Part shown: positions 3,243 to 14,162 of the stretch, in pieces
Layout: each line of letters opens with the position of its first letter
How positions within the stretch are numbered: the stretch's first letter is position 1
Source: a bacterium
Lineage (GTDB): Bacteria > CG2-30-53-67 > CG2-30-70-394
Length of the DNA: 25,354 nucleotides
NCBI GenBank assembly: GCA_024278555.1
Contig: JAJRSX010000017.1
Coordinates: forward strand, 1-25,354
Direction: 5' to 3'
Made by a program: the position numbers and the translations under genes
The notes under the pieces: generated by a model
What the model saw: only the letters and a program-made list of their open reading frames with translations
The model's database searches: none
What the model was told of the DNA's origin: nothing

Positions 3243-4709
3243 TTACAGCGCCGGCAGCGGCCGGCCCTGGCCGGTGGCCTCGAAGGCGTGGACCATCGCC
3301 AGGAGCCGCGCCTCATCGAAGTGGCGGCCGATGAGCTGCGCCCCGAGGGGGAGGCCCGCCGCCGTGGTCCCGGTGGGGAAGCTCACCGCCGGCAGACCGG
3401 CGAGGGAGACGGCGATGGTGAAGATATCCGAGAGGTACATGGTGAGCGGGTCGTCGAGCTTCTCCCCGAGGCGGAAGGGGGGGGTCGGCGCGGTCGGGGT
3501 GAGGAGGAGGTCGCACTGCCCAAAGGCGGCGTCGAAGTCGTTGCGGATCAGGGTGCGGACCGCCATTGCCTTGCCGTAGTAGGCGTCGTAGTAGCCGGCC
3601 GACAGGGCAAAAGTGCCGAGCATGATCCGCCGCTTCACCTCGGCACCGAACCCCTCCTCGCGGGTCCGCTTGTAGACATCGAGGAGGTCCTTGCCCTCCT
3701 GGCGGACGCCGTAGCGGATGCCGTCGAAGCGGCCGAGGTTGGAGGAGGCCTCGGCGGTCGCCACCAGGTAGTAGGTGGCCACCGCCTGCTCGGTGTGCGG
3801 CAGCGACACCTCCACGGTGGTCGCCCCGAGGGACTCGTAGGTGGCGATCGCCGCGCGCACCGCCTCTTCCACCGCCGGGTCGAGGCCGCCGCCGAAGTAC
3901 TCCTTGGGGATGCCGATGGTGAGCCCGGCCACCTCGGCCTCCAGGGCCGCCTCGTAGTTGGGGACCGGCTGGCAAGCGGAGGTGGAGTCGTCCGGGTCGT
4001 GGCCGGCGATCACCCCGAGGAGCAGGGCCGCGTCGCGGGCGTCCTTGGTGAGCGGCCCGATCTGGTCCAGCGACGAGGCGAAGGCGACGAGGCCGTTGCG
4101 CGACACCCGGCCATAGGTCGGCTTCAGCCCGACGACGCCGCAGAAGCAGGCGGGCTGGCGGATCGAGCCGCCGGTGTCCGAGCCGAGGGCGGCGAGGCAC
4201 TCGTCGGCGGCCACCGCCGCGGCCGAGCCGCCCGAGGAGCCGCCGGGAACGCGCTCCAGATCGTGCGGGTTGTGGGTCGGGCCGAGGGCGGAGTTCTCGC
4301 ACGACGACCCCATGGCGAACTCGTCCATGTTCGCCTTGCCGAGGATCACCGCCCCGGCCTCCTCCAGGCGGCGGGCCACGAAGCTGTCGTAGACCGGCCG
4401 GAAGTTGGCGAGCAGCTTCGAACCGCAGGTGGTGGGCAGCCCCTGGGTGCAGATGTTGTCCTTCACCGCGATCGGCAGCCCCCACAGGGGCGGCAGGGGG
4501 TCGGGGCGGGCGGCGTCACGGGCGGCCGCCTGCGCCAGGGCCTCGTCGGTGGTGCGGTGGGCAAAGGCGTGGACCGACCCCTCCACCTCCTCGATGCGCG
4601 CCACACACGCCTCGGTGAGCTCCGCGCTGGTCACCTCGCCGGCGGTGACCCGGTCACGGGCCTCGTGGAGGGTGAGGCGGGCGAGGTCGGAGTCCGCGGC
4701 CATGGTCAC
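3243..4709 (-). CDS. gatA: Asp-tRNA(Asn)/Glu-tRNA(Gln) amidotransferase subunit A
   Basis: GatA is the amidase-signature subunit of GatCAB. It hydrolyses glutamine and channels ammonia to the tRNA-bound substrate on GatB. The 488-residue product shows the Ser-cisSer-Lys triad: K83 in [10 protein letters not shown]158 in [14 protein letters not shown] and S182 in [12 protein letters not shown]. Length and end ([17 protein letters not shown]) are typical. The GTG at 4709 overlaps the panD stop codon (4-bp overlap, GTGA), so the two are translationally coupled; an in-frame ATG lies two codons downstream at 4703. It faces vapC convergently with only 5 bp between stops. Assignment is secure; the choice between the two starts is not. 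Confidence 0.97.
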
Positions 4710-5132: not shown

Positions 5133-5411
5133 CTAGAGGATCCGGGGGACGATGAAGGAGGCGCCGTCGGTGGCGGGGGCGTTGGCGAGGGCCGCCTCGG
5201 TAGGGAGGGAGGGGCGGACGGCGTCGTCGCGGAAGGCCTCGCCGAGGGTTACCGGATGGGTGGTCGGCTCAACGCCGGTGGTGTCGAGTGCTTCGAGTTG
5301 GGCGACATAGTCGAGGATGCGGGTGAGCTGATCGCTCATCGCCGCGGTCTCCTCCTCACCCAGGTCGAGGCGGGCAAGGGCGCCAATCCGTTTGACCTCT
5401 GCCAGATCCAT
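5133..5411 (-). CDS. gatC: Asp-tRNA(Asn)/Glu-tRNA(Gln) amidotransferase subunit C
   Basis: GatC is the small belt-like subunit that wraps GatA and GatB and stabilises the complex. The 92-residue product begins MDLAEVKRIGALARLDL and includes QLTRILDYVAQLEALDTTGV, then a proline-rich stretch with LGEAFRDDAVRPSL and a terminal FIVPRIL, all classic for GatC. A long upstream extension in the same frame (to 6071) is rejected because it runs antisense into glnE and has arginine/serine-rich shadow composition. The ATG at 5411 is preceded by GGTGAGG at a suitable distance. It is the first gene of the gatC-panD-gatA unit and is divergent from glnE. Confidence 0.95.
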   Translation of the reverse strand: MDLAEVKRIGALARLDLGEEETAAMSDQLTRILDYVAQLEALDTTGVEPTTHPVTLGEAFRDDAVRPSLPTEAALANAPATDGASFIVPRIL

Positions 5412-5685
5412 AGAACAGGCCTCACCGTAGACGCCACGCGCCTGGTCGAGAAGGGCGAGGAAGCTAGCACAGGGGTGTTCACCCCACAACAATTCGAATT
5501 CGAAACGGCGGCGCCGTTGCGAAGAGGGGGGCGGCTTTTCACTCCCAGGATCGGGAACCGATTCCCCATGCCACCGGGGGTATGGAGCTGTGGCTGGAGG
5601 AGGGTTGATCGTTGGTTGGCCGGCGCGGTCCCAACCGGCGCACCCGCGTGGTGGATCCGATCGGCGGGGAGCGTAGACTCCGGCG
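5412..5685. promoter_or_regulatory. Divergent gatC/glnE control region with three palindromes
   Basis: These 274 bases separate divergent gatC and glnE. Visible elements: GGGGTGTTCACCCC (5472-5485, 6-bp stem), the AT-rich perfect palindrome TTCGAATTCGAA (5493-5504) and GGGAACCGATTCCC (5553-5566). For gatC a possible promoter on the minus strand is TTGTGG, 17 bases, TAGCTT, overlapping the first palindrome. This is a weak match to consensus. The AT-rich patch stands out in a very GC-rich background. I do not recognise the regulator that would bind these sites. Confidence 0.4.
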
Positions 5686-8600
5686 ATGGGTGGCGGAGCG
5701 GACTTTTGGGCGCGGGCGCGGTCGGCGGCGGCCGCGGGGGGGGAGGGGGCGGTGGCGCGCCTTGCCACCCTGGAGGGGGTGGTGGCGGTCCCGACCGGGG
5801 CGCCGCTGCTGGCGGCGCGGGCCCTAGGCGCCATCGCCGCCCACGCCCCCTTCCTCTGCCGCCACCTGGGCCGTGATCCGGAGGCCCTCGCTTGGGCGGT
5901 GGGGGCGACGGTGTGGCCCGGGGGGCGCGAGCGGTCGGCGATGGCAGACCACCTCGCCGCCCGGCTCGGCGACGGCGACGACGAGGAGGCGTGGATGGCG
6001 GCGGCGCGCGCCTTTCGCAACCGGGAGATGGTGCGTATCACCGCCCGCGACCTCCTCGACGAGGCCTCCATCGAGGAGTCGAGCGGCGAGCTGTCGCGTC
6101 TCGCCGAGGTAATCCTGGAGGCGGGCTTGGCGTTGGTCCGCGCGGCGCTGACCCGCCGCTACGGCGCCATGGGGGGGGCGGGGGCGGGCGGCGGTTTTGG
6201 GGTGATCGCCCTCGGCAAGCTCGGCGCCGGGGAGCTCAACTTCTCCTCCGATATCGACCTCCTCTACCTCTATCACGGGGAGGGGGAGAGCGCGGGCGGC
6301 GAGCGACAGGCCGTCTCCAACCACGAGTGGGCGGTGCGGGCGGCGAAGCAGCTCACCCGGATGCTCGATTGCGACACCGCCGACGGCCGCCTCTATCGGG
6401 TGGATCTGCGCCTGCGGCCGGACGGCAACGGCGGGCCGCTCGCCTTCACCCCGGAGGGGTGCGGCCGCTACTACGAGGCCCTCGGCCAGGGGTGGGAGCA
6501 GATGGCCCTCCTGCGGGCGCGGCGGGTGGCCGGCGACCCTGCGGTGGGCGACGCCTTCCTCGCCGAGGTCGCCCCCTTTGTCTACCGCCGCACCATCGAC
6601 CCGGCCCTGGTGGAGTCGGTGCGCTCGGTGAAGCGGAAGATCACCCGCCAGCTCGTCGCCCGCCGCCAGCGCGGCTTCCACGTGAAGCTCGGCACCGGCG
6701 GCATCCGCGAGGTGGAGTTCTTCTGCCAGACCCTCCAGATCCTCCACGCCGGCCGGAACCCCGAGCTGCGCGAGCGCAACACCTTCCGGCTCCTCGACCG
6801 GCTCCTGGCCGCCGGTCTGATCGACGACAACCTGCACGCCTCGCAGCTCGCCGACTATTCGCTGTTGCGCCGCATCGAGCACCGGCTGCAGATGGTGGAG
6901 GACCGCCAGACCCACCAGCTCCCGCCGGAGGCGGCGGCGCGCGCCGTGGTCGCCCGGGGGCTCGGCTTTCCCGACCTCGACCCCTTTGACGCCCACCTCA
7001 CCACCCTCCGCGACCGGGTCCACCTCCTCTTCCAGTCCCTCTTCGCCCGCGAGGAGAGCGATGAGGCGCGCGGTCGGCGGGAGCGCCTCACCCAGGAGCT
7101 CACCGCGCGGCTCCCCTTTGTCGACCCGGAGACCGCCGCGGCGGTCCTCAACCACTGGCCCGAGGAGGAGCTCGCCGCCCCCGCCCCCACCGCCGTGGCC
7201 GACGGCTTCGCCCTGCTCTCGGCGCTCTCTGAGGCGGAGCCGGTGGTGGCGCACATCGTCGACCTCGGCCTCGGCCGCTACCAGCTCCGCCTCGCCGCCG
7301 TCGACACCACCGGCCTGGTCGCCCTCTCCACCGGGGCCCTGGCCGGCTTTGGCCTCGACATCCGCGACGGCGCCCTCTTCACCCTCCCCCGCGGTCGCTA
7401 CTGGGGGCGGGAGCAGGGGCCGTGGGCCCTCCAGTACCTCACCGTGACGCCGGCAGACGACGCCCGCCTCGACGCCCACGAGCGCGACCAGGTGGCCGCC
7501 CGGGTGGTGGCGTGGGCGACCCGCTGGGTGGCGGGGGAGCGCGTTGCGGTGCGCGCTCAGGTGGCCGCCCACTGGGTCGCCACCCTGCGCCGGCGCGCCG
7601 ATGAAGTCGTGCCGGGGCTGGCGGCGGTAGAGCTGGAGATCGACAACCGCGCCGACCCGGACGCCTCGGTGGTCTACCTGTGGGGCGCCGACGCCCCCGG
7701 CTTCCTCCACGCCTTCGCCCTCGGCCTGGCGATGCGCTCCATCCGCATCCGCGACCTGAAGGTGCGCACCGACGGCCAGCGGGTGGTGGACTGCTTCCGC
7801 CTCACCGACGCCGGCGGCCGGAAGATCATCACCGCGAGCGCCCGCCACGAGATCGAGGTCTTGGCGGTGCTGATCCACGGCTTCGCCTACTGCCTCGCCG
7901 CCGCCGCCGACCCCGACCTGGCGCTCACCCAGTTCGACGCCCTGCTCGACCGCCTGGCCCGCGACGGCGCGGTGGCGAGCCTGCGTGCCCTGGAGGCCGG
8001 GCCGCTGCTCTCGGCCCTGGCCACCATCCTCGGCTCCGGGACCCACCTCTTCGAGGACTTCCTTTGCCTCGCCCCGCGCCACCTCCTGCCGGTGGTGGCG
8101 GCGGTCGCCGGCGGCTCCCCGCCGCTGCCGCCGCCGCAGGCCAGCGGCACCGTGGAGCAGCGGCGCGAGGCGCTCATCGCCTGGCGCGACGCCGAACTCT
8201 TCCGTATCGACTGCGACCACCTCCTCCATCCGGACCGCCCCTTCGGCCTCTTCGGCGAGCACCTCACCCGCCTCGCCGACCAGGTGGTCACCGCGGCGTG
8301 GGAGCTCGCCCTGGAGGAGGTGGGGCCGGCCGACGGGATCTGGGCCCTCTTCGGCCTCGGCAAGCTCGGCGGCCGGGAGCTCGGCTACGCCTCCGACCTG
8401 GAGCTCCTCTTCATCTACCGCGCCGACCCGGAGAGCGGGACAGGGCAGGCGGCGGTGGAGGGGTACCAGCGGGCGGTGCGGCGCCTCCTCCAGTCGCTGC
8501 CGGCGCGGCGCGAGGGGATCTTCGAGATCGACCTGAGGCTGCGGCCGCACGGCAAGGACGGTCCCCTGGCCGTCTCCGCGGCGGCCTTTGTGCACTACTA

Positions 8601-9201
8601 CCGTCCGGGCGGCGGCGCCGCGCCGTTCGAGCGCCAGGCCCTCATCCGCCTGCGCCCGATCAGCGGCGACCCCGACCTCATCGCCGAGATCCTCGCCGCC
8701 CGGGACCGCTTCACCTACGGCGGCGAGCCCTTTGACCTCGCCCTCTCGGCGGAGCTGCGCCGGCGGCAGATCGAAAACTTTGTCCGCGCCGGTGCCACCC
8801 ACCTCAAGTACGGTCGCGGCGGCCTGGTGGAGGTGGAGTACGCCATCCAGTACCGGCAGATCGCCCTCGGCGCCGCCCACCCGTCGGTACGCCGGACCAA
8901 CCTCCTGGAGGCGATCGCCGCCTTGGAGCGGCTCGGCGACCTCGGAGCGGCGGAGGCGGCGCGCCTGCGCGGCGCCTACACCCTCCTGCGGCGGGTGATC
9001 GACGCGGTCCGATTGGAGCGCGGCAACGCCCGCGACCTCCTCCTCCCGGAGCCGACCACCCCCCCCTTCGAGCGCCTCGCCCGCCGCCTCGGCCGCGACC
9101 CGGCCGAGCTCGCCGCCGAGGTCACCGAGACCATGGCGTGGGTCGCAGAAAACTACGCCCGAGCGGTGGGGGCGGCCGGCTCAGATGGCGCGCCCGGGTA
9201 G
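5686..9201 (+). CDS. glnE: Glutamine synthetase adenylyltransferase/deadenylylase with internal ACT-like pair
   Basis: GlnE adds AMP to glutamine synthetase when nitrogen is ample and removes it when nitrogen is scarce. The 1171-residue protein has two nucleotidyltransferase halves. The first has ALGKLGAGELNFSSDIDLL (D189, D191), the LRLRPDGNGGPL segment and GTGGIREVEFF. The second has GLGKLGGRELGYASDLELLF (D904, E906), LRLRPHGKDGPL and GRGGLVEVEYAIQY. E. coli GlnE has 946 residues. The extra length is central: around 531-590 (LSTGALAGFGLDIRDGALFT) and 655-735 (DAPGFLHAFALGLAMRSIRI, then GQRVVDCFRLTDAGGRKI) the sequence resembles the two ACT domains at the C-terminus of GlnD, which sense glutamine. 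The ATG at 5686 is the first start after an in-frame TAG. GlnE identity is certain; the ACT pair is my inference from motif resemblance. Confidence 0.96.
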   Translation: MGGGADFWARARSAAAAGGEGAVARLATLEGVVAVPTGAPLLAARALGAIAAHAPFLCRHLGRDPEALAWAVGATVWPGGRERSAMADHLAARLGDGDDEEAWMAAARAFRNREMVRITARDLLDEASIEESSGELSRLAEVILEAGLALVRAALTRRYGAMGGAGAGGGFGVIALGKLGAGELNFSSDIDLLYLYHGEGESAGGERQAVSNHEWAVRAAKQLTRMLDCDTADGRLYRVDLRLRPDGNGGPLAFTPEGCGRYYEALGQGWEQMALLRARRVAGDPAVGDAFLAEVAPFVYRRTIDPALVESVRSVKRKITRQLVARRQRGFHVKLGTGGIREVEFFCQTLQILHAGRNPELRERNTFRLLDRLLAAGLIDDNLHASQLADYSLLRRIEHRLQMVEDRQTHQLPPEAAARAVVARGLGFPDLDPFDAHLTTLRDRVHLLFQSLFAREESDEARGRRERLTQELTARLPFVDPETAAAVLNHWPEEELAAPAPTAVADGFALLSALSEAEPVVAHIVDLGLGRYQLRLAAVDTTGLVALSTGALAGFGLDIRDGALFTLPRGRYWGREQGPWALQYLTVTPADDARLDAHERDQVAARVVAWATRWVAGERVAVRAQVAAHWVATLRRRADEVVPGLAAVELEIDNRADPDASVVYLWGADAPGFLHAFALGLAMRSIRIRDLKVRTDGQRVVDCFRLTDAGGRKIITASARHEIEVLAVLIHGFAYCLAAAADPDLALTQFDALLDRLARDGAVASLRALEAGPLLSALATILGSGTHLFEDFLCLAPRHLLPVVAAVAGGSPPLPPPQASGTVEQRREALIAWRDAELFRIDCDHLLHPDRPFGLFGEHLTRLADQVVTAAWELALEEVGPADGIWALFGLGKLGGRELGYASDLELLFIYRADPESGTGQAAVEGYQRAVRRLLQSLPARREGIFEIDLRLRPHGKDGPLAVSAAAFVHYYRPGGGAAPFERQALIRLRPISGDPDLIAEILAARDRFTYGGEPFDLALSAELRRRQIENFVRAGATHLKYGRGGLVEVEYAIQYRQIALGAAHPSVRRTNLLEAIAALERLGDLGAAEAARLRGAYTLLRRVIDAVRLERGNARDLLLPEPTTPPFERLARRLGRDPAELAAEVTETMAWVAENYARAVGAAGSDGAPG

Positions 9202-10757: not shown

Positions 10758-11462
10758 ATGATGAAGACGATCTTGTTGGTGGCGGTGGCCAGCCTTGGGG
10801 TGGCCGCCTCGGCGGTGGCGGGGCCGCGGGTGGTGGTGGAGGCGCCGGTCTTTGACTTCGGGACCATCCTCCAGGGTGACAAGGTGGAGCACCGTTTTGT
10901 GGTGGAGAACCGGGGCGATGCACCCCTGGAGATCCACAAGGTGAAGACCACCTGCGGCTGCACCGTGGCGCGCGACTACCCGCGCGAGCTGGCGCCGGGG
11001 AAGAGCGGCGAGCTGCTGGTCACCTTCAACTCGGCCCACAAGCGCGGCCCCCAGACGAAGGGGATCACCCTCTTTACCAACAGCGAGCCGAGCGCCCAGT
11101 ACGTCCTCCAGCTCAAGGGGATGGTGCGGGAGCTGATCGCGGTGAGCCCGGTGGTGTGCAACTTCGGGGTCGTCCCCCAGGGCAAGGTGGTGACCCGGGA
11201 GATGACCCTCGCCAACCACTCGGACCAGCCGGTCCACCTACAGGTAGTCGAGCCGTCCGACGCCCACTTCAAGGTGAGCGTCGGTGAGGCCACCGTCCCT
11301 GCCGGCGGCGAGACCAAGGTGTCGGTGGAGTTTTCCAGCACCACCGACCGGCCGGTCTTCGCCAACCTGGCGGAGATCCGTACCGACCACCCGCGGGTGC
11401 CGGTGGTGACCATCCGCATCCGAGCCAGGGTCGAGATCCCACAGCAGCCGGCGGCGGGGTGA
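10758..11462 (+). CDS. Exported DUF1573 protein, two Ig-like domains
   Basis: This 234-residue protein has an N-terminal signal peptide (MMKTILLVAVASLGVAASAV, cleavage probably after AVA at about residue 22). Two DUF1573-type beta-sandwich domains follow. The first, from about residue 27, has the hallmark VFDFGTILQGDKVEHRFVV, RGDAPLEIHKVKTTCGC and LAPGKSGELLVTF. The second, from about 130, has VVCNFGVVPQGKVVTREMTL and VPAGGETKVSVEF. DUF1573 proteins are periplasmic or surface proteins of uncertain function with a PapD/ASH-like fold; the TTCGCTV cysteines are conserved. AGGAGAT precedes the ATG. It heads a plus-strand series with the heme lipoprotein and protease downstream, which suggests an envelope role. 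Confidence 0.88.
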   Translation: MMKTILLVAVASLGVAASAVAGPRVVVEAPVFDFGTILQGDKVEHRFVVENRGDAPLEIHKVKTTCGCTVARDYPRELAPGKSGELLVTFNSAHKRGPQTKGITLFTNSEPSAQYVLQLKGMVRELIAVSPVVCNFGVVPQGKVVTREMTLANHSDQPVHLQVVEPSDAHFKVSVGEATVPAGGETKVSVEFSSTTDRPVFANLAEIRTDHPRVPVVTIRIRARVEIPQQPAAG

Positions 11463-11477
11463 GGCGAGGCGCGGGTG

Positions 11478-11506
11478 GCGGCTTGCCGCTGTTCGGCTTC
11501 GAAGCC
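11478..11506. promoter_or_regulatory. Two adjacent palindromes between DUF1573 and cytochrome genes
   Basis: GCGGCTTGCCGC (11478-11489) and GGCTTCGAAGCC (11495-11506) are both perfect and lie 5 bases apart in the 73-base gap. They could form RNA hairpins that attenuate or end the upstream transcript, or be a protein-binding site. There is no U-tract. The downstream gene lacks a clear ribosome-binding site. Confidence 0.35.
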
Positions 11507-11535
11507 CTCTTGCCACTATCCACCTTGTTGTCTCG

Positions 11536-12822
11536 ATGCGTCTGACCCGCGGCCTCTCTGCGGCGCTCCTCCTGGGCGTCGCGCTGACCGTCGCCTGCGC
11601 GACCAGCGGCCGCATGGCGCCGACAGCGGTCCCGCCGCGGCTATTCTTCATGGGCCATGTGGAGGGGTACGTGGAGCCGTGCGGCTGCAGCGAGGGGCAG
11701 CTCGGCGGGGTGGCGCGGCGCGCCGAGCTCCTGCGCCGGCTGCGCGCCGCTCCCGGCGCGACCCTCCTGGTGGACGCGGGCAACCGGCTGATCGCTGCCG
11801 GTCGCAGCGGTGAGATCCAGGCGGCGGCCCTGGCCCTCGCGGCGGAGGCGGCCGGGGTGGCGGCGATCAATTTGGGGGAGGACGAGCGCCGCCTCGGCGC
11901 CGACTTCCTCTCCCGCATCGAGCCGGTGCGCCGCCTGCCGTGGGTGCGCGCCAATACCGACCCGCCCGCCACCGGCCGCTGGCCCGGCGAGGTGGCGCGC
12001 ACCGTGCGGGTCGGCGGCCAGGAGGTGTCGATTACCGGGGTGAGCGAGGCCGCGGCCGGGGTGGGCGATCCGGCCGCGGCGGTCGCCGAGGTGGCGGCGA
12101 AGGTGGCCCGCGGCAGCCGCCTGGTGGTCCTCTTTCAGGGCCAGGTAGCGGCGGCGGATCGCCTCGCCCGGGCGGTGGGGCGCATCGATCTGATCGTCGT
12201 CGCCGACGGCGAGGACCACCTCGACGCCGCCGCCCATCGGGTCGGCGCCACCCTGGTGGTGGCCACGGGCACCGACGGCAAGTGGCTCGGCGAGCTCCCC
12301 CTCACCCCCGGGCCTTTGGCCCCGGAGGGGGTGCAGGTCCACGTGCTGACCGAGGCGATCCCCGACGACCCGGGGGCGGCCCATCTGGTGCGTGACTACT
12401 ACCGCCGGCTCAAAGAGGCGCGGGTGCTGACCGAGGCGGTGCCACGACCCACGGTGGGCGGCAGCTATAGCGGGGCCACGGTGTGTGGCTCGTGCCACGA
12501 GGACGCCTTTGCCCTGTGGCGGGAGAGCGGCCACGCCCACGCCCTCACCACCCTGACCGAGCGCGGCAAGGAGGGGGCGCCCGAGTGTGTCGGCTGCCAC
12601 ACGGTGGGTGCCGGCTTTACCGGCGGCTTCGTCGACGCCACCACCACCCCGGAGCGGGGCGGGGTCCAGTGCGAGTCCTGCCACGGGGTCGGCTCCAACC
12701 ACGTCGACAACCCGACGCGCGACTACGGCCGCGCCGACGAGCAGACCTGCCGTCGCTGCCACACCGCCGAGCGCAGCCCCAAGTTCGATTTCTCCACCTA
12801 CTGGCCGCGGATCATGCACTGA
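11536..12822 (+). CDS. Metallophosphoesterase-like tetraheme c-type cytochrome lipoprotein
   Basis: The 428-residue protein has a likely lipoprotein signal (GVALTVAC, Cys21). Residues about 35-290 resemble a UshA/5'-nucleotidase-like phosphoesterase fold but lack its metal-binding motifs: the DxH position reads GHVEG (40-44), the GNH(E/D) position reads GEDE, and the late GGHTH position reads ADGEDH. In their place is the cysteine motif PCGCSEGQLGG (C49, C51). The C-terminal part has four CxxCH heme sites: CGSCH (317-321), CVGCH (351-355), CESCH (379-383) and CRRCH (405-409), in the style of cytochrome c-554-like domains. It is expected to be a periplasmic electron-transfer lipoprotein. It lies 23 bp before the HtrA gene. 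Family-level recognition is good; the biochemical role is unknown. Confidence 0.85.
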   Translation: MRLTRGLSAALLLGVALTVACATSGRMAPTAVPPRLFFMGHVEGYVEPCGCSEGQLGGVARRAELLRRLRAAPGATLLVDAGNRLIAAGRSGEIQAAALALAAEAAGVAAINLGEDERRLGADFLSRIEPVRRLPWVRANTDPPATGRWPGEVARTVRVGGQEVSITGVSEAAAGVGDPAAAVAEVAAKVARGSRLVVLFQGQVAAADRLARAVGRIDLIVVADGEDHLDAAAHRVGATLVVATGTDGKWLGELPLTPGPLAPEGVQVHVLTEAIPDDPGAAHLVRDYYRRLKEARVLTEAVPRPTVGGSYSGATVCGSCHEDAFALWRESGHAHALTTLTERGKEGAPECVGCHTVGAGFTGGFVDATTTPERGGVQCESCHGVGSNHVDNPTRDYGRADEQTCRRCHTAERSPKFDFSTYWPRIMH

Positions 12823-12845
12823 GGTAGGCAGGCGGAGGGTGAACG

Positions 12846-14162
12846 ATGCGCGTGTTCGGGTGGCGTTGGTGGATCGTTGGGGTGGTCGTCGCGGCCGTCG
12901 GGGGGAGCGCGGTCCTGCCGGTCGAGGCCGGCACGGTGGCGACGGAGGTCACCCGCCGGTCGGCGGTGGTGCGGGTGGTGGAGCGCCTCGCCGGGGCGGT
13001 GGTGAACATCTCCACCACCCAGCTTACGGTACGGCGCGACCCCCTCTTCGAGGAGTTCTTCGGCTCTCTCTTCGAGCCGGGACGGCGGGTGGAGCGGCGT
13101 GCCTCTCTCGGCTCAGGGATCATCGTCGACCCCAAGGGGCTGGTGGTCACCAATGCCCACGTGGTCGCCGGCGCGCACCGTATCTTTGTCGGGGTGGAGG
13201 ATGAGGAGATGGTGCCGGCGACCCTCGTGGGGGTCGACTCCACCGCCGACCTCGCGGTCCTGCGCATCAACACCCAACGGCGGCTGCGCGTCATCGGCCT
13301 CGACAAGGGCGAGGCGCCACTCATCGGCGAGACGGTGATCGCCATCGGCAACCCCTTCGGCCTGTCGCACACGGTCACCGTCGGGGTGATCTCGGCCCTC
13401 GACCGGTCGATCCGCACCGACGACCGGGTCTACCACCGCTTCCTCCAGACCGACGCCTCCATCAACCCGGGCAACTCCGGCGGGCCGCTGCTCAACGTTG
13501 AAGGCGAGCTGGTGGGGATCAACTCCGCCATCTATGCCCGCGGCGAGGGGATCGGCTTCGCCATCCCCCGGCCCCGTGTCCGCCGGGTGGTCCACGCCCT
13601 CACCACCGAGGGGTGGGTGTCGCCGGCCTGGGCCGGCTGGCTGCTGACTGCCGGCGACCGCGGGGTGAGCGTCGTCTACATTGCCCCGGACTCACCCAGC
13701 GCCCGCGCCGGCTTCGTGGTCGGTGACCGGCTCCTGAGGCTCGGCAGGGTTGCGGTGCGCGGTGTCGACGACGTCCTCGCGGTCCTCGCCGGCTCCCTCC
13801 CCAAGGAGGAGCTCACGGTCACCTTTGTCCGTGAGGGCCACCGCCATGAGGGGCGGCTGCGCCTCGGCAGGTATCGATCCAAGGCGGCGGATTCCATCGC
13901 CCGAACCCTCCTCGGGCTCGTGGTCACCGACTGGCGCGGCAGGGGGCGGGGGCGCGGGGTGGTGGTCCAGCGGGTGATCGACGGTGGCTGGGCGCAGCAG
14001 GCGGGGATCCGCCCCGGCGACCTGATCCGTGCCGTCGGCCAGCTTCCCCTCAGTCGCAAGCAGGACTTCAACGACGCCCTCGGCCTGGTCTTCTCGCAGC
14101 GCAGCCTGCCTCTGGAGGTGGAGAGGGATGGGGTGGGCTACCTCCTCCGTCTCCAGTGGTAG
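12846..14162 (+). CDS. Periplasmic HtrA/Deg-type serine protease
   Basis: This 438-residue DegP/DegQ/HtrA-type protease degrades or refolds damaged envelope proteins. A signal peptide or anchor (WWIVGVVVAAVGGSAVLPVEA, about residues 8-28) leads to the trypsin-like domain. The catalytic triad is complete: H105 in VVTNAHVVAG, D135 in DSTADLAVL and S211 in NPGNSGGPL. Two PDZ domains follow (about 262-345, with SPSARAGFVVGDRLLRLG, and about 350-438, with GWAQQAGIRPGDLIRAVG). The regulatory loop (SLFEPGRRVERR) is short, more like DegQ/DegS than DegP. It follows the heme lipoprotein by 23 bp, so probably shares its transcript. I leave the symbol blank because degP, degQ and mucD cannot be told apart here. 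Confidence 0.93.
   Translation: MRVFGWRWWIVGVVVAAVGGSAVLPVEAGTVATEVTRRSAVVRVVERLAGAVVNISTTQLTVRRDPLFEEFFGSLFEPGRRVERRASLGSGIIVDPKGLVVTNAHVVAGAHRIFVGVEDEEMVPATLVGVDSTADLAVLRINTQRRLRVIGLDKGEAPLIGETVIAIGNPFGLSHTVTVGVISALDRSIRTDDRVYHRFLQTDASINPGNSGGPLLNVEGELVGINSAIYARGEGIGFAIPRPRVRRVVHALTTEGWVSPAWAGWLLTAGDRGVSVVYIAPDSPSARAGFVVGDRLLRLGRVAVRGVDDVLAVLAGSLPKEELTVTFVREGHRHEGRLRLGRYRSKAADSIARTLLGLVVTDWRGRGRGRGVVVQRVIDGGWAQQAGIRPGDLIRAVGQLPLSRKQDFNDALGLVFSQRSLPLEVERDGVGYLLRLQW

Follow-up and report, generated by a model that had tools for sequence, protein, structure and literature searches.

The glnE gene of the window (the whole stretch of DNA that was analysed, 25,354 nucleotides) encodes a protein in which a GlnD-type pair of ACT domains lies between the two catalytic halves, an arrangement confirmed by sequence, profile-profile comparison, predicted fold and phylogeny. 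We suggest, with a probability of roughly 0.6, that this protein is a bifunctional glutamine synthetase (GS) adenylyltransferase/adenylyl-removase, the adenylylating C-terminal half of which belongs to a distinct subfamily that carries the regulatory module of GlnD and is predicted to be responsive to glutamine. The architecture, referred to here as ACT-GlnE, is not unique to the window genome, but marks a subfamily that spans multiple phyla. The features of the window gene are as follows:

5686-9201, + strand: ACT-containing GlnE, 1171 residues, one open frame, order NT1-ACT1-ACT2-NT2 (ORF and domain searches)
5824-7044, + strand: NT1, N-terminal half of the deadenylylase type, with NTase PF03710 at residues 47-293, PF08335 at residues 314-453, SSDID at residues 187-191 and the third acid D240 (domain models; match to 1v4a, E 1.5e-61; tree)
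7243-7530, + strand: ACT1, residues 520-615, VDTTGLVALSTGALAGFGLDIRDG (GlnD models, hhalign, AlphaFold, fold search)
7531-7626, + strand: helical bridge between ACT1 and ACT2, residues 616-647 (AlphaFold model)
7627-7896, + strand: ACT2, residues 648-737, ADAPGFLHAFALGLAMRSIRIRDLKVRTDGQRVVDCFRLTDAGGRKI (Pfam, GlnD models, hhalign, AlphaFold, fold search)
7897-9171, + strand: NT2, C-terminal half of the adenylyltransferase type, residues 738-1162 (tree, ACT-ACT-NT2 model, fold match)
8389-8406, + strand: catalytic motif ASDLEL of NT2 (D904, E906), with the third acid at D949 (motif search)

Upstream of glnE, the opposite strand carries GatB (95-1555) and a GatA-like amidase (3243-4709), and a GatC-like sequence can be discerned by eye inside the ORF at 5133-6071 (- strand). 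Downstream, positions 10758-14162 of the + strand encode a DUF1573/HYDIN-type Ig protein, a cytochrome c554-like protein and a trypsin-PDZ (DegP-type) protease.

Catalytic halves of the window GlnE

On the basis of its domains and motifs, the window protein is a GlnE, that is, a GS adenylyltransferase/deadenylylase of predicted activity. Two stretches each are matched by Pfam PF03710 (E 4.1e-90) and PF08335 (E 3.1e-34), with the GlnE NTase and GlnD_UR_UTase domains located at residues 47-453 and a second GlnE half further on, and the score against the NCBIfam GlnE equivalog NF008292 is 490.7 bits, above the cut-off of 487. The protein is not a GlnD, as it reaches 71.9 bits with TIGR01693 (cut-off 519.4) and lacks the NTase-HD-ACT-ACT order. 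The spacing between the catalytic SD motifs is 715 residues, compared with 528 in E. coli GlnE and 531 in a sister-family GlnE, which places the excess of ~190 residues in the central region, as had been proposed in the preliminary description of this 1171-residue protein.

Catalytic carboxylates are present in both halves, namely SSDID and D240 in NT1 and ASDLE and D949 in NT2. The second Asp of the motif, a metal ligand, is replaced by Glu in NT2, and SD[IL]E is found in all halves attached to an ACT pair (ACT-NT) that are readable by motif search, whereas every readable canonical GlnE half has SDxD and none has SD[IL]E. This substitution within the adenylylating half counts against a self-sensing adenylyltransferase. 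The AlphaFold model of ACT-ACT-NT2 (pLDDT 88.8, pTM 0.87) matches the halves of the E. coli adenylyltransferase (1v4a, Z 39.0; 3k7d, Z 35.9) as well as ACT proteins.

A GlnD-type ACT pair in the central region

Residues 501-760 alone match the ACT portion of GlnD models (PRK05092, E 2e-13; TIGR01693, E 8.6e-11; another model, E 8.4e-11), whereas Pfam ACT on its own gives a non-significant E of 0.031 for the window GlnE. Thus, Pfam ACT alone would have missed the window pair, which is settled by the family alignment together with the GlnD models. Pfam ACT matches 43 of the 66 relatives (best E 7.6e-11) and an ACR9-like ACT model matches 57, and comparison of the 66-relative alignment with 11 GlnD C-termini using hhalign yields 99.9% and E 3.6e-37 over 229 columns. 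Since these columns take in the helices preceding ACT1, the match extends over the whole regulatory module at the C-terminus of GlnD.

The AlphaFold model of residues 450-795 (pLDDT 87.3, pTM 0.86) comprises two beta-alpha-beta-beta-alpha units, each bearing an extra N-terminal strand. Fold matches of the pair (VIA) include the ACT domains of aspartate kinase (Z 13.0), GDH-180 (Z 10.1), threonine deaminase (Z 9.0) and CASTOR1 (Z 8.5), and the best match to a solved structure in Foldseek is the 180-kDa NAD-glutamate dehydrogenase; a sequence search for a solved relative returned weak ACT matches only. Which ACT domain of GlnD binds glutamine, and how, is settled by none of the solved structures found. 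The preliminary description had placed a tandem ACT pair of the GlnD type at 7261-7900, in close agreement with the computed boundaries of 7243-7530 and 7627-7896, and both the profile search and the structure prediction bear out this assignment, with ACT profile matches and two ACT folds rather than a helical linker alone.

The central segment could in principle be an ordinary helical linker that resembles ACT domains by chance, or the frame could represent two genes joined by an assembly error. In a same-genus genome, glnE stops at residue 181 and restarts at residue 880, both at contig ends, and because the gene is broken there this genome cannot confirm the central part or the join. The window gene is, however, a single continuous open frame, and the NT1-ACT-ACT-NT2 order recurs in dozens of independent genomes, which leads us to reject an assembly chimera, while the profile and fold evidence rules out a linker or a chance resemblance; the likelihood of either explanation is practically nil.

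Distribution and origin of the fusion

In a survey of 386 genomes, about a dozen that do not belong to the window's phylum (which itself comprises 8 genomes only) contain the ACT pair together with the C-half module. A scan of 84,980 species genomes yields 414 relatives of the ACT-NT query, the best 80 of which were used here, and no place in plasmid records covers 80% of this query. Among the best 80 of 414, the NT1-ACT-ACT-NT2 order, with a length of about 1185-1345 residues, is found in Planctomycetota, Chloroflexota and one spirochaete. Nitrospira and other Nitrospirota have a stand-alone ACT-ACT-NT protein of roughly 740-880 residues, with the N-half encoded by a divergently transcribed neighbour, and in Entotheonella the ACT-ACT-NT and N-half are adjacent split genes. 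An inverted order, ACT-ACT-NT-NT, in which the adenylylating-type half comes first, is observed at three loci of Omnitrophota and their kin. Desulfuromonadales have a stand-alone ACT-ACT-NT of about 700 residues, and a complete canonical GlnE (about 1060 residues) is present elsewhere in the genome. Across the family, the ACT pair goes with the adenylylating half and not with the deadenylylating half, and in Nitrospira, Planctomycetota and Chloroflexota the ACT-NT replaces the canonical C-half rather than being additional to it.

In the tree of GlnE halves, 30 of 30 ACT-NT halves, including that of the window, form one clade (SH-aLRT 100), which neighbours the canonical C-terminal halves and is separate from every N-half. 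Descent of the window C-half with the canonical GlnE of its class-mates is rejected (p-AU 3e-33), whereas descent of the N-half with the class-mates is compatible with the data (p-AU 0.137). In the ACT-pair tree, GlnE-ACT and GlnD-ACT are separate clades (100/100), and we can therefore reject the possibility that the window ACT pair was copied from the organism's own GlnD. Thus, the single ACT-NT clade and the separation of GlnE-ACT from GlnD-ACT suggest that the fusion most likely arose once and was afterwards spread or lost, rather than being remade from a local GlnD.

Neighbouring genes and the probable target of the ACT-NT half

A glnA gene is located within 5 kb of the ACT-NT gene at about 25 of the loci searched, in Nitrospirota, Chloroflexota, a spirochaete and Omnitrophota, and the adenylylation tyrosine (D/N-[LI]-Y-[DE]-L) is found in all 24 of the 24 neighbouring GlnA proteins readable at the site. 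At five loci of Nitrospirota the cascade is clustered, with divergent NT1 and ACT-NT genes followed by glnA, glnD and glnB.

A different situation is encountered at four Desulfuromonadales loci, where two of the four ACT-NT genes adjoin a 2-oxoacid:ferredoxin oxidoreductase and no nitrogen genes were found among the neighbours scanned. Because these bacteria also keep a canonical GlnE, and their ACT-NT genes lie away from nitrogen genes, some ACT-NT members may do something else. By extension, the ACT-NT half in general could be a nucleotidyltransferase that uses another nucleotide or acts on another target than GS, which would fit with these stand-alone copies residing beside a full canonical GlnE and with the D-to-E change in the metal motif being invariant among ACT-NT halves. 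We consider this quite improbable, however, given that glnA genes encoding the target tyrosine adjoin ACT-NT genes in several phyla, that ACT-NT substitutes for the canonical C-half in three lineages, and that its fold equals that of the E. coli adenylyltransferase halves. Our preferred reading remains that ACT-NT is a GS adenylyltransferase.

Occurrence with and without GlnD and PII

In textbook nitrogen control, GS adenylylation is governed through GlnD and PII. Among 121 Anaerolineae genomes, none has a GlnD at the family cut-off, the top match to the GlnD model (82 bits) being confined to the HD region of the model, and about 31 of the 121 contain the ACT module within a frame that is GlnE-sized or shorter (possibly cut by contig ends). 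Canonical PII, defined as E < 1e-20, is absent from 26 of these 31 genomes and present in 5, as counted from draft genomes and profile matches. Loss of PII is not enriched among the ACT-GlnE Anaerolineae within the 121 genomes (Fisher p 0.78), PII being rare across the class sample. In addition, a genome from another small class, G197, has ACT-GlnE and neither GlnD nor PII, whereas in its three class-mates PII and GlnD are present and ACT-GlnE is absent. Omnitrophota and one further genome (G118) have PII and lack GlnD, and both GlnD and PII are present in Planctomycetota, Nitrospira, Entotheonella and the window organism.

Thus, ACT-GlnE is found both in cells that possess the GlnD/PII cascade and in cells that lack it. 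Since the ACT-GlnE Anaerolineae have no GlnD and mostly no canonical PII, it is likely that GlnE in this family senses an amino acid directly and independently of PII, and we infer that this amino acid is probably glutamine. The broader proposal that the GlnE branch found over several phyla consists of one self-sensing enzyme, in which the ACT pair detects glutamine and controls the adenylyltransferase and for which GlnD and PII would be dispensable, is a tentative one to which we give slightly less than even odds.

We are less sure that the same sensing operates in the window organism, which keeps the full GlnD/PII cascade: amtB, glnB and glnA are consecutive on another contig, GlnA carries the target tyrosine (NLYDLPPEE), GlnB, the one PII, carries the T-loop tyrosine (ELYRGAEY), and a separate GlnD scores 641.6 bits. 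Moreover, none of the 66 ACT pairs is as diverged as that of the window, which retains 38 of 65 strongly conserved columns (the next lowest retains 45) and sits on a long branch (2.65) in the ACT-pair tree, so that its specificity may have changed or decayed. Both observations would fit a reading in which the pair, although real, binds another ligand in this organism, or acts mainly as a structural spacer or PII-interaction surface, with regulation left to the intact GlnD and PII. Yet the ACT-ACT fold is still predicted confidently for the window, a glycine is kept in both beta1-alpha1 loops (TTG; DAPG) together with the aspartates D540 and D669, and NT2, at 78% to the same-genus relative, is better conserved, and we regard this alternative as rather unlikely. 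The preliminary description had suggested that the enzyme may detect glutamine directly and have less need of PII. This idea gains support at the level of the family, from the Anaerolineae and G197, but is weakened for the window organism by the presence of GlnD, PII, AmtB and GlnA; indeed, the case for glutamine is better supported in the family at large than in the window, because the window ACT pair is diverged and on a long branch and glnE is broken in the same-genus genome.

Proposed mechanism and implications

In the PII cascade, the role of glutamine sensor is ascribed to GlnD (PMC4285133), whose ACT pair is the proposed glutamine site (PMC3173338), and in E. coli GlnE adenylylation is carried out by the C half and deadenylylation by the N half (PMC12409994). 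Because the ACT pair accompanies the half that adenylylates and the ACT domains of GlnD are the proposed sensor, we suggest that glutamine promotes adenylylation. At high glutamine, binding to the ACT pair would activate the adenylyltransferase half joined to it and switch off the deadenylylase half, such that GS would become adenylylated and slowed, and the reverse would apply at low glutamine. Where a lineage has neither GlnD nor PII, ACT-GlnE may thereby be the sole sensor through which glutamine acts on GS, whereas in the window organism, which keeps both, it may add a second, direct glutamine input. As an alternative to glutamine, the ligand could be another amino acid that reports on nitrogen status. 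The E. coli adenylyltransferase is already directly affected by glutamine, and thus the novelty would lie in the sensing module rather than in a glutamine effect as such.

No description of an ACT domain in GlnE was found in the open-access literature (PMC), and the passages found of a HEPN survey covering GlnD and GlnE show no ACT domain. The family libraries searched hold no model of the ACT-GlnE architecture, which is matched only as GlnE or GlnD fragments. As a regulated subfamily, the architecture appears to be undescribed in the open-access literature searched; the proteins themselves are not new, since the sequences are public.

If the proposed reading is correct, ACT-GlnE in cells without GlnD and PII would represent a shorter circuit for the same control of GS, and a single self-sensing enzyme may govern nitrogen uptake in many bacteria. 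Lineages with both systems (the window organism, Planctomycetota, Nitrospira), with PII only (Omnitrophota) and with neither GlnD nor PII (most Anaerolineae sampled, G197) would then trace the replacement of a cascade by a single protein. ACT-GlnE may also provide a test system for locating the site through which glutamine influences GS adenylylation, a point only partly answered by the E. coli enzyme. It bears, in addition, on how nitrogen is handled by Nitrospira, Planctomycetota and Anaerolineae, groups of importance in wastewater and sediments.

Comparison with known systems

Like E. coli GlnE (1v4a, 3k7d; Z 39.0 and 35.9), the window protein has two NTase halves with GKxGxxEL..SD motifs, of which the N-terminal half is of the type that deadenylylates and the C-terminal half of the type that adenylylates. 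Unlike the window protein, E. coli GlnE has no ACT pair between its halves, has SDLD in its C-half where ACT-NT has SD[IL]E, and relies on PII and PII-UMP together with direct effects of glutamine. The tandem ACT module of GlnD, including its leading helices, is homologous to that of the window, whereas the window GlnE has no match to the HD domain and carries the ACT pair before its catalytic half, rather than after it as in GlnD. Plant ACR proteins and the ACT domains of GDH-180 share a tandem ACT of the GlnD/ACR kind, but without an attached GlnE-type nucleotidyltransferase. The ACT-NT proteins of Nitrospira, Planctomycetota, Chloroflexota, Omnitrophota, Entotheonella and Desulfuromonadales have the same ACT-ACT-NT2 module as the window GlnE and belong to one clade, within which the domain order differs by phylum, being stand-alone, NT1-ACT-ACT-NT2 or ACT-ACT-NT-NT.
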